DNA of 37,963 nt from an uncultured Micrococcales bacterium. GTDB taxonomy: Bacteria > Actinomycetota > Actinomycetes > Actinomycetales > Microbacteriaceae. The position numbers and the translations under genes are program-made. The stretch covers positions 1-37,963 of the forward strand of contig CAJXZO010000009.1 in the NCBI GenBank assembly GCA_913062975.1. Direction: 5' to 3'. The notes under the pieces were generated by a model. That model made no database searches. It saw nothing but the letters and a program-made list of their open reading frames with translations, and was not told the DNA's origin. Below, one piece after another: positions 17,741 through 22,197 of this stretch (its first letter is position 1; each line of letters starts with the position of its first letter).

Positions 17741-18361
17741 ATGGCCAGGGAGTTTGTTAGAAGAGTTCTAATCGTCGATGACGATGCCCTTATCCGTTCC
17801 TTGTTATCAACTGCTCTGAATTCTTTTGGTTTTGAAACCGAAGCTGCCGCTGATGCAATCTCCGCTCACAGAATGCTCAAGAAATTTGACCCAGATGTTT
17901 TGCTGGTGGACATTGACCTTGGGTCTGGGGTTAACGGCCTAGAGCTGGTTAGTGCTCTGGGGAGAGCTGACAACACCCGCGGCTATGTGATTTTGTCAAA
18001 TTACTCTGCCTCAGTGAAGGCCATCCCCGAGGTTCCCTATATTTCCTATCTAAATAAGCAGGACATGGCAGACACCCAGTTGCTGGTGGATCAAATCGAG
18101 GGTGTTCTCAGAGGGGCTGGCAGCTCTGTCGCAACGGGGGCAGATCTAAATCTGACTCGAGCACAGATGGACCTGCTTCGAATGCTCAGTGAGGGAATGT
18201 CAAATCAGCAAATTGCTGAGAGTAAGGATCAATCCACCAGAGCGGTTGAACAGCTGATAACAAGGACTTATAAGGCGCTGGGGTTTGAGGCAAAATCAGG
18301 CTCCTCGAGAAGAGTTATGGCAGCACAGGTTTATCGTCAGTATTTGAAGGTAAACCCTTGA
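17741..18361 (+). CDS. Response regulator with LuxR-type helix-turn-helix (copy 2)
   Basis: A 206-residue paralogue of the response regulator at 9276, of identical length and layout. The receiver domain has D13/D14, phosphoacceptor D57 (LLVDIDLG), S86 and K106. The LuxR-like HTH spans about 137-200 (LTRAQMDLLRMLSEGMSNQQIA...STRAVEQLIT). The Gln after LTxx and the STRAV turn are shared with copy 1, supporting common descent. A strong GGAGGGAAA ribosome binding site precedes ATG 17741. The stop overlaps the TTG start of the kinase (TTGA). The gene begins 67 bp after clpB; low-level readthrough from the heat-shock operon is possible, as no terminator is visible between them. Confidence 0.88.
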   Translation: MAREFVRRVLIVDDDALIRSLLSTALNSFGFETEAAADAISAHRMLKKFDPDVLLVDIDLGSGVNGLELVSALGRADNTRGYVILSNYSASVKAIPEVPYISYLNKQDMADTQLLVDQIEGVLRGAGSSVATGADLNLTRAQMDLLRMLSEGMSNQQIAESKDQSTRAVEQLITRTYKALGFEAKSGSSRRVMAAQVYRQYLKVNP

Positions 18362-20103
18362 AAAAAAGCATCATCAGAGCTACCCGGTCTATCTACTCAC
18401 CCCCAGGCCTTTCTTATGTCCCTTGGCTAATCATGCTTCCCTTTTCAATTCTGGGCACTGGAGCTTTTGTCCCCGAGGGAACAAGCGTTGGTGAGCCAAA
18501 CTGGATGACTGTCGGGCTTGTGGCTCATTTGGTTTTGCTTCCAATGATTTTTGTTGGAAACCTAATTGCCAAGGCATTCAATTTCCGTTTCGGACTGATT
18601 TTGATTGCAACTCTTGTTTTGATGGGGCTGGCAAGGGGATTTACCGTTTCCACCTTGGCTGAGCAGTTTGTGCTGGTGGAGCAGGCTAATTTCGCATGGC
18701 GCATGGGCACCGGAACCTTTTTGGTGGTCGTTTGGTATGCGGTGGGCAATGCCGCGGTGTTTGAAATTAACAGCTTCACCAAAACACTCAGCAAATTAAA
18801 AACCGAACTTGCCAAACAGTCCAAATACTTGGAGCAGAGCGAGGACGAGTTGGAGCGTTCTCGATCTGAGGTTCTCCAAGAGACGCTGAAGCTTGTTGAC
18901 CTTGGGCTGATTCAGGTTGAAACCAAGGGCAAAGAAAGCCGGGAGCTGCAGAAAATCTCCAATCAGTTGCATCGTTTGGTGGACCAGGGGCTCAGACCAA
19001 TAATTGATCGACTTCACGTTTCCTCCACCAAGCCTGAGTTTGTTGTGATTCCCTATCAAAAGGTAAACGGCTGGCAAGTGGCAACAACGGCCTTCATAGA
19101 AAGACCTTTCCACATCGCAGTGGCAATTGTGTTGCAGATGATTTCTGCAATCACTGCCAAAATCTGGGGATTCGGTGTTGCGGGTGCGTTGCTGGATTTG
19201 CTGTTGGTGGGTACAGCTATCTTCGTTAGCTACACAATCGGAAGGCGGGTTCTTTCCAAGCTTGAGAACCAAACTGCCAAGCTGATTTCGAACCTGAGCT
19301 TTTTAATGATTCCAGCATTCGTCAGTTCAGTTTCACCGCTGATTGTTTTGCCAGGATCTGAGCTAACGCTGATTGCAGCAATGAGTCTTTTCAACAACGT
19401 ATTTGCAGCAGGAATGCTCTCAGCGGTTGGCTTTGCGTCGAAATACGAATACGAGCAGGCCATCGAGAGGCTGAAACTTGCGATTGACCAAACCGCTTTG
19501 GCAAGGTCAAGGGCTGAGCAGATGAGACTGGTGGAAAAGCAGAGACTTGCAAGAATCCTGCACGGAACAGTTCAGTCAAGGATTCGATCTTTGGCCTTGG
19601 AGATTGAAAGAACCGGTGTCGCACCAGATTCTCAGAAACTCAGTCAATTCCGGACTGCGATTGAGACAGAGCTTAAGACCCCATCATCGATCAACCTGGT
19701 TGAGTTTCTTGATCAACTGCACGAGATGTGGGGGGCGAGTGCTGAAATCAGTTGTTCCTTGGATCCGGAAACAGTTGATTTGCTAGCAAACGATCAAAAC
19801 GCCCACGTGGCGGTGGTAGAGATTGTGCGCGAGGTGGCTTCAAACGCCATGAAGCACTCTGATTCCAAAAAAGTCAGTTTCAAAATCGGGCCCTACCATG
19901 CAGTCAGCGAAAGCTTGGGCATCATCATGGTTTCGGCTGAGTTTGATGGCACCAAAATATCCAATACCAAGCCTGGCTACGGGATGAAAACAATTTCCGA
20001 GCTCAGCACCCACTTCAGCTATCACTCTGATTCAAAAGGAAACCACTTCTCAGCTGAGGTGCCAGTTTCCAATCAACTAATGCTGGCAACAACCGGCACG
20101 TGA
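18358..20103 (+). CDS. Membrane histidine kinase, 4TM-coil-4TM layout (copy 2)
   Basis: A 581-residue paralogue of the kinase at 9893. Four hydrophobic helices (about 18-135) precede a strongly coiled-coil cytoplasmic block (about 138-245, TLSKLKTELAKQSKYLEQSEDE-like heptads). Four further helices lie at about 250-362. The phosphoacceptor helix has H402 in RLARILHGTVQSRIRSL, again HG where HisKA_3 kinases usually have HD/HE. The ATPase N-box is E492...N496 (EVASNAMKHS) and the G-box PGYGMKTISEL near 539. The TTG start is supported by GAAGG 7 nt upstream and by the overlap with the regulator stop; ATG at residue 26 is the alternative. The 3' end overlaps convergent xth by 31 bp. Confidence 0.82.
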   Translation: MKKSIIRATRSIYSPPGLSYVPWLIMLPFSILGTGAFVPEGTSVGEPNWMTVGLVAHLVLLPMIFVGNLIAKAFNFRFGLILIATLVLMGLARGFTVSTLAEQFVLVEQANFAWRMGTGTFLVVVWYAVGNAAVFEINSFTKTLSKLKTELAKQSKYLEQSEDELERSRSEVLQETLKLVDLGLIQVETKGKESRELQKISNQLHRLVDQGLRPIIDRLHVSSTKPEFVVIPYQKVNGWQVATTAFIERPFHIAVAIVLQMISAITAKIWGFGVAGALLDLLLVGTAIFVSYTIGRRVLSKLENQTAKLISNLSFLMIPAFVSSVSPLIVLPGSELTLIAAMSLFNNVFAAGMLSAVGFASKYEYEQAIERLKLAIDQTALARSRAEQMRLVEKQRLARILHGTVQSRIRSLALEIERTGVAPDSQKLSQFRTAIETELKTPSSINLVEFLDQLHEMWGASAEISCSLDPETVDLLANDQNAHVAVVEIVREVASNAMKHSDSKKVSFKIGPYHAVSESLGIIMVSAEFDGTKISNTKPGYGMKTISELSTHFSYHSDSKGNHFSAEVPVSNQLMLATTGT

Positions 20104-20855
20104 TCACTTGGAAGATCACCCTTTCTTTCTGCCCTGACCATCTCTGTTTCTGAAACTCTCTCGGCCAATGTTTCAGATGCCAGGATGAAGTCAATTCTCA
20201 TTCCCTCGTTTTTGGGGAAGCGCAGTTGTTTGTAATCCCAATAGGTGTACCCCTCGGGGTGATCGGGTCTAACCACATCGGTTAGCCCAATCTGTTCAAA
20301 CGCCTCAAAAGCCATGCGCTCGTCTTCGCTAACGTGAGTGGAACCGGCAAACTCAGCGATGTCCCAAACGTCTGTGTCTAATGGAGCAATGTTGAAATCT
20401 CCCATCAAAGCCATCTGCAAATCAGGATCTGCTTCGAGCTGTTCTGCGGTGGTGGCGGCCAGATTATGAAGCCATTCGAGTTTGTATGTGTAGTGAGGGT
20501 GGTCTAGCTCTCTGCCGTTTGGAACATAGAGTGACCAAAGCCTTACTCCATCGAAGGTTGCCCCCAGGGCCCGGGCTTCAAAAACATCATTGAATGCTGG
20601 CATTTGTGAAAACTCATACTCGATGTCTGAAACCTGAATGTGTTTTTTATAGGCAAAGGCAACACCGTTCCATTGATTCAGCCCATGGATGATTAACTCA
20701 TAGCCCAGTGCTTCGAACTCAGCTCTTGGGAATTGCTCCGGTTTGCACTTAATTTCCTGCATCGCCAGGATGTCAATATCGGCTCTAGATAGGTAATCGG
20801 TGACTCTTGCCACCCTTGCTCTGATTGAGTTGACGTTCCATGTGGCAATGCGCAT
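20073..20855 (-). CDS. xth: Exodeoxyribonuclease III / AP endonuclease
   Basis: DNA-repair nuclease of the ExoIII family that cleaves at abasic sites. The 260-residue product begins MRIATWNVNSIRAR, then shows MQEIKCKPEQFP near 34 (metal-binding Glu), LYVPNGRELDHP near 108, GDFNIAPLDTDVWD near 150 (catalytic Asp/Asn) and SDHVPVVASI at the C-terminus (catalytic Asp-His pair). It is complete. The start is only 16 bp from that of pyrE on the other strand, so both promoters share that gap. TAGAGT six bases upstream of the ATG suggests a leaderless transcript. The 3' end overlaps the second kinase gene by 31 bp. Confidence 0.95.
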   Translation of the reverse strand: MRIATWNVNSIRARVARVTDYLSRADIDILAMQEIKCKPEQFPRAEFEALGYELIIHGLNQWNGVAFAYKKHIQVSDIEYEFSQMPAFNDVFEARALGATFDGVRLWSLYVPNGRELDHPHYTYKLEWLHNLAATTAEQLEADPDLQMALMGDFNIAPLDTDVWDIAEFAGSTHVSEDERMAFEAFEQIGLTDVVRPDHPEGYTYWDYKQLRFPKNEGMRIDFILASETLAERVSETEMVRAERKGDLPSDHVPVVASIS

Positions 20856-20871
20856 AGCTAAACTCTAATTT
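20856..20871. promoter_or_regulatory. Overlapping divergent -10 elements for xth and pyrE
   Basis: In a 16-bp gap, TAAACT (20859-20864, plus strand) lies 7 nt before the pyrE GTG, and TAGAGT (complement of 20862-20867) lies 6 nt before the xth ATG. Both fit the TANNNT pattern at a distance placing +1 at the start codon. No Shine-Dalgarno is visible for either gene. Matching -35 elements were not convincing. Confidence 0.5.
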
Positions 20872-21423
20872 GTGAGTGATAACAACCCAGACAGACATCG
20901 CCTAATTGAGCTAATAACTGAACTAGCCGTGGTGCATGGAGAGGTGACTCTTTCCAGCGGCATCAAAGCCGATTACTACGTTGATCTGAGAAGAGCGACT
21001 TTGCATCACGAGGCATCAAAGTTGATTGGTGCTCAGATGCTGCAACTGCTCACCCAAAACGGAGTCAACGAATTTGATGCTGTTGGTGGCCTCACAATGG
21101 GAGCTGACCCAGTTGCCGCTGCAATCATGAACGCTAGCGACAACATCGACGCCTTCGTTGTTCGCAAGCAAGCCAAGCAGCATGGCATGGGCAGACAGGT
21201 TGAGGGACCCGAGATTTCAGGCAGAAAAGTTGTTGTGGTGGAAGACACCTCGACCACGGGCGGAAGCCCGCTCACTGCGGCAGAGGCAGTCAAAGAAGCA
21301 GGTGCCGAGATTTTATGCATTACAACCGTGGTTGACAGAGACACAGGCGCCCGCGAAGTGATTGAAAAAGAAGGATATAAATACCTTTCCCTAATCAGTC
21401 TTGAGGATCTGGGTCTTAGCTAA
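20872..21423 (+). CDS. pyrE: Orotate phosphoribosyltransferase
   Basis: Converts orotate and PRPP to orotidine 5'-monophosphate in pyrimidine synthesis. The 183-residue product has the SSGIKADYYVDLRR substrate-binding segment near 25-38, GGLTMGADPVAAAI near 68-80, the flexible RKQAKQHGMGRQVEG loop near 98-112 and the PRPP-binding motif VVVVEDTSTTGGSPL near 121-135. The start is GTG 20872, with no Shine-Dalgarno and a -10-like TAAACT just upstream. In several actinobacteria pyrE is followed closely by an RNA methyltransferase; here a toxin-antitoxin pair lies between them. Confidence 0.96.
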   Translation: MSDNNPDRHRLIELITELAVVHGEVTLSSGIKADYYVDLRRATLHHEASKLIGAQMLQLLTQNGVNEFDAVGGLTMGADPVAAAIMNASDNIDAFVVRKQAKQHGMGRQVEGPEISGRKVVVVEDTSTTGGSPLTAAEAVKEAGAEILCITTVVDRDTGAREVIEKEGYKYLSLISLEDLGLS

Positions 21424-21432
21424 CTTTTCCCA

Positions 21433-21471
21433 CAGATTCCTCGATGTTCCGAAGTCAAGAAACGGAATCTG
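21433..21471. repeat. Inverted repeat downstream of pyrE
   Basis: CAGATTCC (21433-21440) and GGAATCTG (21464-21471) are perfect 8-bp inverted arms around 23 bp, with a nested TTCCG/CGGAA pair. There is no T-run. It may be a weak pyrE 3' structure or mark the edge of the inserted toxin-antitoxin module; neither is proven. Confidence 0.4.
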
Positions 21472-21487
21472 CAAGAGTGATTTGGTG

Positions 21488-21523
21488 TTGATTCAGGATA
21501 ATAAATCAGATAATCTGATTTAT
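21488..21523 (+). promoter_or_regulatory. Promoter and 23-bp palindromic operator of the toxin-antitoxin operon
   Basis: A -35 TTGATT (21488-21493), 17-bp spacer and -10 TAATCT (21511-21516) lie 7 nt before the antitoxin ATG, pointing to a leaderless mRNA. A perfect palindrome at 21501-21523 (arms ATAAATCAGAT and ATCTGATTTAT around a central A) covers the -10 and the predicted start site and abuts the ATG. That is the expected place for antitoxin autorepression. Confidence 0.8.
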
Positions 21524-21787
21524 ATGACAAAAACAATGACCGCCACTGAGGTGTCAAGAAATTTCAGTGATGTTTTGGACCAGGTGGCGGCTGGTGAAAC
21601 AATCCTGATTACCAGGGGAAAATCAGTCATTGCTCAACTCGGTGGAGTCGAGAATGTGGCATCTGGCAAGCGGCTAGCACAAATGCTGACAAGTGTTGAA
21701 AAACCTGAGAGTGATGCAGAAATCGAATCTATCTGGGAGGAAGTCAACAGCCAACGAGATGATGCCGACAACTGGGATAGATATTGA
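21524..21787 (+). CDS. Phd/YefM-type antitoxin
   Basis: An 87-residue antitoxin. The N-terminal half (about 1-50) is the Phd/YefM DNA-binding fold: TMTATEVSRNFSDVLDQVAAGETILITRGKSVIAQL-like, with the typical VSRNFSDVLD and ITRxGKxVA pattern. The acidic C-terminus (ESIWEEVNSQRDDADNWDRY) is the probable toxin-binding tail. ATG 21524 directly follows the palindrome; an upstream in-frame extension exists but would run through the operator, so it is rejected. The stop overlaps the toxin TTG start (TTGA), coupling the two. Expected to neutralise the PIN toxin and repress its own promoter. Confidence 0.87.
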   Translation: MTKTMTATEVSRNFSDVLDQVAAGETILITRGKSVIAQLGGVENVASGKRLAQMLTSVEKPESDAEIESIWEEVNSQRDDADNWDRY

Positions 21788-22197
21788 GCACCAACCTGAG
21801 AGTAGTTCTTGACACATCGGTACTGATTGCAATTGAGCGCGGTGCAGATGTAAAAGTGCTTCAGGATTTGGGTTTTGTTTTGCCAACACCTGTTTTGGCA
21901 GAGTTTGAATACGGATTGCGAAGGATGTCAGCCCAATCAAGTAAACGGGGCTGGAAAGTCCTTGAGGCGTTATTGAGCGTCTCTGAGGTAGCTGGCTTTG
22001 ACTCACGTGCCGCAAGCAAACATGCTGAGTTGAAAGCTACCCTTGCTCACCTTGGCAAACCAAGATCTGGAATGGATCTATTGATTGCCTCTATTGCAGC
22101 CTCTTGGGGTCTTCAACTGGTGACCACTGACCGGAAAGCTCAGTTCGAGAGTATTCCTGGTGTGAAAGTGCATCCGGCGGGCTCTAAACTTCACTAG
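21784..22197 (+). CDS. VapC-type PIN-domain toxin (ribonuclease)
   Basis: A 137-residue PIN-domain protein. The four acidic metal-binding positions are seen: D10 (VVLDTSVLI), E40 (VLAEFEYG), D98 (SGMDLLIA) and D116 (VTTDRKAQF). In the VapC family these form an Mg-dependent RNase, often cleaving tRNA or rRNA; the target here is unknown. The start is TTG 21784, inside the antitoxin stop. The TAG stop shares one base with the GTG start of the RNA methyltransferase (TAGTG), so the toxin is also coupled to a housekeeping gene. The catalytic set is intact, so the module looks functional. Confidence 0.88.
   Translation: MSTNLRVVLDTSVLIAIERGADVKVLQDLGFVLPTPVLAEFEYGLRRMSAQSSKRGWKVLEALLSVSEVAGFDSRAASKHAELKATLAHLGKPRSGMDLLIASIAASWGLQLVTTDRKAQFESIPGVKVHPAGSKLH

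Follow-up and report, generated by a model that had tools for sequence, protein, structure and literature searches.

The founding paper on the bidirectional promoters of prokaryotes is reportedly that of Warman et al. (2021). In such promoters, the divergent transcription starts lie 7-25 bp apart and the -10 elements overlap on opposite strands, and in the common 18-bp form, the -7T and the -11A reciprocally coincide (TANNNTA), as described in PMC12825309 and PMC10268837. A second described system is that of the leaderless genes of Actinobacteria, which have a lone -10 element, TANNNT, located some 12 bp upstream of the start codon, and lack both a -35 element and a Shine-Dalgarno sequence (PMC3160421, PMC3898074). 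According to a figure legend in PMC3898074, divergent promoters in M. tuberculosis often lie in close juxtaposition. Among the titles and opening lines of abstracts that were listed in searches of the open-access literature, none described two leaderless genes that share a -10 element. In this study, which was based on a window of 37,963 nucleotides (the whole stretch of DNA that was analysed) and on the comparison of its genome with those of its relatives, we found that the 16 bp that separate xth from pyrE very probably form one leaderless bidirectional promoter that is composed of two interleaved -10-only promoters. As in the known bidirectional promoters, the -10 elements of xth and pyrE overlap on opposite strands. 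The start separation that is predicted from the motif positions would be 17 bp. Unlike the promoters described in the portions of those two sources that we cite, both transcripts are predicted to be leaderless, so that the start codons fix the geometry, and the clade shows no -35 signal. Moreover, in contrast to the common 18-bp form, the two -10 elements are interleaved over 3 bp (over 4 bp in the fused loci of the genus g11) and share no fixed bases. With the leaderless genes of Actinobacteria the pair has in common the motif, its spacing and the absence of a -35 element and a Shine-Dalgarno sequence; those genes are treated singly in the cited parts of PMC3160421 and PMC3898074, whereas xth and pyrE are two genes with interleaved -10 elements. 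The leaderless bidirectional promoter would be a variant within the known class of bidirectional promoters, and its leaderless interleaved form appears to be new.

The gene xth, which encodes an exodeoxyribonuclease III of 260 aa with an ATG start, occupies 20073..20855 on the minus strand and matches TIGR00633 with 241 bits (cut-off 99), and pyrE, which encodes an orotate phosphoribosyltransferase of 183 aa with a GTG start, occupies 20872..21423 on the plus strand and matches TIGR00336 with 128 bits (cut-off 107). Both start positions were set by homology and not by the ORF caller that is blind to upstream motifs, which recovered the pyrE start at 20872 and misplaced that of xth at 20813. 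In the alignments with the three nearest relatives (L002-L004), the homologues of both proteins align from residue 1. At its other end, xth overlaps the ORF 18358-20103 tail to tail by 31 bp (20073-20103), so that xth is closely packed against its neighbours on either side; this ORF gave only a weak histidine-kinase match below the cut-off. Directly downstream of pyrE (region 21401-22197) lies a VapC-like toxin gene at 21784-22197, the NCBIfam matches of which were below the cut-off, and the small ORF that precedes it could encode an antitoxin.

The ATG of xth at 20855 (minus strand) and the GTG of pyrE at 20872 (plus strand) are divergent and are separated by the 16 bp AGCTAAACTCTAATTT (20856..20871, assigned to neither strand). 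The -10 element of pyrE, TAAACT, was placed on the plus strand at 20859..20864, 7 nt before the GTG, and that of xth, TAGAGT, on the minus strand at 20862..20867 (read from 20867 to 20862), 6 nt before the ATG; both assignments are based on the spacer statistics and the conservation that are presented below. The two hexamers share 3 bp (20862-20864), and their fixed T and A positions interleave in the form TANANTNTA with none in common, which yields the core TAAACTCTA at 20859..20867 (no strand). Both elements deviate from the consensus of the clade, with an A at -10 in pyrE and a G at -8 in xth, which counts against the promoter reading. As judged by eye, AGGA, GGAG and GAGG are absent from the 20 nt upstream of both starts. 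This layout is read directly from the sequence and its coordinates, and it bears out the original prediction of a 16-bp gap with overlapping TAAACT and TAGAGT elements 6-7 nt before the start codons and with no Shine-Dalgarno sequence. From the spacers of 7 and 6, transcription is predicted to start at the first base of each start codon, i.e., at 20872 on the plus strand for pyrE and at 20855 on the minus strand for xth. The hexamer TTGACG at 20830-20835 was considered as a -35 element of pyrE and rejected; it lies 23 bp from the -10 element, which is too far given the usual spacing optimum of 17 bp (PMC12825309), it is located within the coding sequence of xth, and the clade has no -35 signal.

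The genome-wide occurrence of this signature was analysed in a sample of 434,828 bases of the window genome (the window and 20 further stretches) and in one 400,000-base sample for each of five relatives. Genes were called without using upstream motifs, and TANNNT was then counted by its spacer to the start codon. In the window genome, the motif was found at spacer 6 in 47 and at spacer 7 in 14 of the 393 called starts, with a background mean of 5.3 per spacer (spacers 20-39). Similar counts for spacers 6 and 7 were obtained in the samples of the four other small genomes (39 and 14 of 318, 34 and 16 of 314, 38 and 13 of 343, 25 and 13 of 331) and in the larger genome G008 (29 and 14 of 338). 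The highest peak was at spacer 6, followed by spacer 7, in all six samples. In the spacer-6 set of the five small genomes, which comprised 183 genes, the -10 consensus was TAG(A/G)CT followed by T, and no -35 signal was found, with at most 0.03 bit at every position from -45 to -16. This suggests that a lone -10 element suffices. Additionally, Shine-Dalgarno-like 4-mers were present upstream of 118 of the 393 genes of the window genome, which indicates that both kinds of starts coexist. On these sequence statistics, TANNNT at spacer 6-7 without a -35 element is the signature of leaderless genes that are driven by a lone -10 element.

A search with pyrE gave matches in 56 of 59 relatives and in 387 of 398 genomes of the family, the two sets overlapping. 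The loci that were examined comprised 55 best matches and the best 80 of 577 confirmed hits, i.e., 135 in total, one of which was dropped due to too little upstream sequence; some of them represent one genome under two names, as seen from identical proteins (L031/L179, L034/L182, L038/L228). When TANNNT at spacer 6/7 was scored, all in-frame starts between positions -60 and +24 were admitted, and xth was scored only where it was divergent within the flank, although not always next door, which was the case in 61 loci. For pyrE, the motif was present in 100 of the 134 best-match loci, as compared to 0, 1, 0, 3 and 4 for five control motifs, and for xth in 53 of the 61 loci, as compared to 0, 0, 5, 0 and 2. 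The placement of TANNNT at xth and pyrE across these genomes is not due to chance. It was missing in the remaining 34 pyrE and 8 xth best-match loci, which counts against the promoter reading and in favour of the alternative that the main promoters are located inside the opposite genes, with ordinary leaders, and that the -10-like motifs at the starts are minor or accidental. This explanation is nevertheless quite unlikely, as a scan of 20600-21140 that requires a -35 element detected no two-hexamer sigma-70-like site, neither start is preceded by a Shine-Dalgarno sequence, the conservation is specific to the spacer with no control above 5, and the motif moves with the start codon as the gap changes. 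Among the 51 best-match loci that have both motifs, the gap was 15 in eight, 16 in eleven and 17 in one, 20 altogether, none had a gap of 18-30, and it was at least 31 in the other 31. In the ten best-match loci that lack one of the motifs, the projected gap was always at least 43.

At the level of genera, the 16 bp were identical to those of the window in G002, the only other genome of the same genus in which pyrE was found; the third genome of this genus, G001, which is 59% complete, gave no pyrE match. In the genus g14, seven of the nine loci have a gap of 15 and the same nine bases TAAACTCTA, L033 has a gap of 39, and L035 has no xth in the flank. In the genus g11, three of the nine loci have a gap of 16 with TTAAACTTA, in which the hexamers overlap by 4 bp, and the gaps of the other six range from 31 to 465; that so few are fused counts against the proposed reading. 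The g11 form of the junction was also found in L176 and L178, the records of which are named Rhodoluna, so that the window most likely derives from an aquatic member of the Microbacteriaceae with a small genome, of the Luna-1 type. Rhodoluna lacicola is reported to be naturally transformable (PMC11577799). The near-palindromic core might suggest an operator for a regulator of both xth and pyrE instead of a promoter. We consider this to be extremely improbable, because the same TANNNT occurs at the same spacer upstream of many other genes and because the core varies by genus (TAAACTCTA versus TTAAACTTA) and TANNNT is nonetheless found at spacer 6-7 on each strand.

In a 39-row tree of the concatenated xth and pyrE proteins, the window genus grouped with g14 with a support of 92/92, and the core TAAACTCTA is kept between both. 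The tree implied at least five changes between the fused and the split states, and with so few changes as a minimum, many of the loci are not independent. L033 was placed inside a 100/100 clade of g14-type rows, the inner forks of which had bootstrap values of 80-90; all of the other members whose gap is known have a gap of 15. In L033, ACAACT stands where the pyrE half of the core used to be, the xth half is still TAGAGT, and a TAGCCT precedes pyrE at spacer 6. As read from the alignment and the tree, an insertion split the pair in L033, pyrE acquired a new -10 element and only the redundant half decayed. This is one single event and not a statistic; it indicates that the overlap can come apart, and here the half that had lost its gene decayed. 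The same observation bears on the possibility that only one of the -10 elements is functional and the other is a by-product of a near-palindromic -10 sequence. The -10 element is inherently near-symmetric, as can be seen from the clade consensus TAGNCT (the principle is set out in the cited part of PMC10268837), but the xth and pyrE motifs are offset and interleaved and do not occupy the same bases. Most of the split loci keep a motif of their own for each gene, as in the 31 loci with gaps of at least 31 that carry both, neither motif is missing in any best-match locus with a gap below 43, and the decay in L033 was confined to the redundant half. A single functional element is, in our view, very unlikely.

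In the leaderless bidirectional promoter that we propose, two -10-only promoters on opposite strands would be interleaved as TANANTNTA, with each placed 6-7 nt ahead of its own start codon. RNA polymerase, bound in either orientation, would initiate at the first nucleotide of the start codon, and we infer that both mRNAs are translated without a leader or a Shine-Dalgarno sequence. With the melted region taken as -11 to +3, the two melted regions would extend over 20861-20874 and 20866-20853 and overlap, and because of this overlap, the junction would be expected to hold only one polymerase at a time. This aligns with the statement in PMC12825309 that two polymerases cannot occupy a bidirectional promoter together. 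The leaderless starts of both genes and the overlapping -10 elements, which had been predicted from the window alone, are strongly supported by the comparative evidence of spacer statistics, conservation and the tree, and the overlap of the melted regions, which had been described as a single melted region, follows from the geometry. The two leaderless promoters were most likely brought together by compaction in the small-genome Microbacteriaceae. If both -10 elements work, two complete promoters and two translation starts are accommodated in 16 bp, which would make this a very small control region for two genes. In leaderless genes, the start of transcription is bound to the start codon, which makes it possible to propose such promoters and to trace them even in genomes for which RNA data are lacking. 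Moreover, split relatives such as L033, or menB where menC is not next door, can serve as natural experiments on the way in which bidirectional promoters arise and are split.

The consequences of the overlap for expression can be considered in the light of the E. coli work in PMC12825309. In the part of that study cited here, none of the five bidirectional promoters that were tested had a basal activity high enough for competition; it arose only once one side was substantially activated, and strong activation could repress the other side. At ordinary activity, xth and pyrE are probably expressed independently, and anticorrelated mRNAs are possible but are not the default expectation. A special case of the leaderless bidirectional promoter, the probability of which is contained in that of the general reading, is that the overlap acts as a regulatory switch in which the firing of one gene excludes the other and the mRNAs are anticorrelated in some condition. 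Steric exclusion and repression by strong activation of the opposite side are known at bidirectional promoters (PMC12825309), but in view of the low basal activity in the same work, of the relatives with split gaps that lost or never had the overlap and yet keep both genes, and of the promoter scan of 20600-21140, in which no activator site emerged, such a switch seems unlikely. Similarly doubtful is the broader suggestion that, in streamlined members of the Microbacteriaceae, the distance between the start codons of two divergent leaderless genes directly records the bidirectional geometry and that selection favoured the interleaved form of xth and pyrE because it lets DNA repair and pyrimidine supply exclude one another (or controls noise between them), and not merely for compactness.

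An analysis of the 272 divergent pairs in the six samples revealed 24 cases in which the start codons are separated by 5-60 bp and each is preceded by TANNNT at spacer 6/7, compared to a total of two for seven control motifs of the same form. Those with a gap of up to 30 had gaps of 16 (xth/pyrE), 17 (four pairs), 22 (one) and 23 (three). The pairs with gap 17 were considered as a class of four and rejected as such, since all four are menB/menC orthologues and hence one locus, which also leaves only few distinct loci. In the genome of the window, the menB/menC pair (L070:13634-15504, G000 C8) is divergent with the palindromic -10 sequence TAGACTA. Both genes of this pair carry the leaderless signature, and on sequence grounds it is a second divergent leaderless pair with a shared -10 element. 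Given the clade consensus TAGNCT, the palindrome TAGNCTA carries the consensus on both strands, and palindromes of this type correspond to the known 18-bp bidirectional geometry (PMC10268837, PMC12825309); the menB/menC junction matches this TANNNTA form, whereas the xth/pyrE core TANANTNTA does not. The layout is not special to the pairing of a repair gene with a pyrimidine gene, as a similar one exists at menB/menC.

menB was present in all of the 20 small genomes that were searched, with a locus in each (L256-L275), and menC was divergent from it at a gap of 17 in 16 of the 20 genomes and at a gap of 18 in two, with TAGACTA in all 18. In G177 and G116, menC is not divergent beside menB; AAGCCT occupies the menC half of the core, and menB retains TAGGCT. 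When 79 genomes across the class were scanned for the bare pattern of the gap-17 form, without gene context, no excess was seen, with 71 forward matches and 70 for the reversed-pattern control. The AT-swapped control gave more matches than the gap-17 form, very many of them in a few genomes; coding sequence is the probable source of a bias in this control. Within the genome of the window, the gap-17 pattern had one match, which was the menB/menC junction itself, and the AT-swapped control three. The result of the class-wide scan counts against a wide claim for the gap-17 form. The divergent leaderless pairs with gaps of 22-23 (L127:3668-3691, L118:4495-4519, L090:12438-12462 and L170:18233-18257) are near the known 23-bp form. 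We take their proteins to be a dUTPase-like protein, a CrcB-like beside an RhtB-like protein, an RsmI-like protein beside a mannosyltransferase-like one, and a ThiL-like protein.
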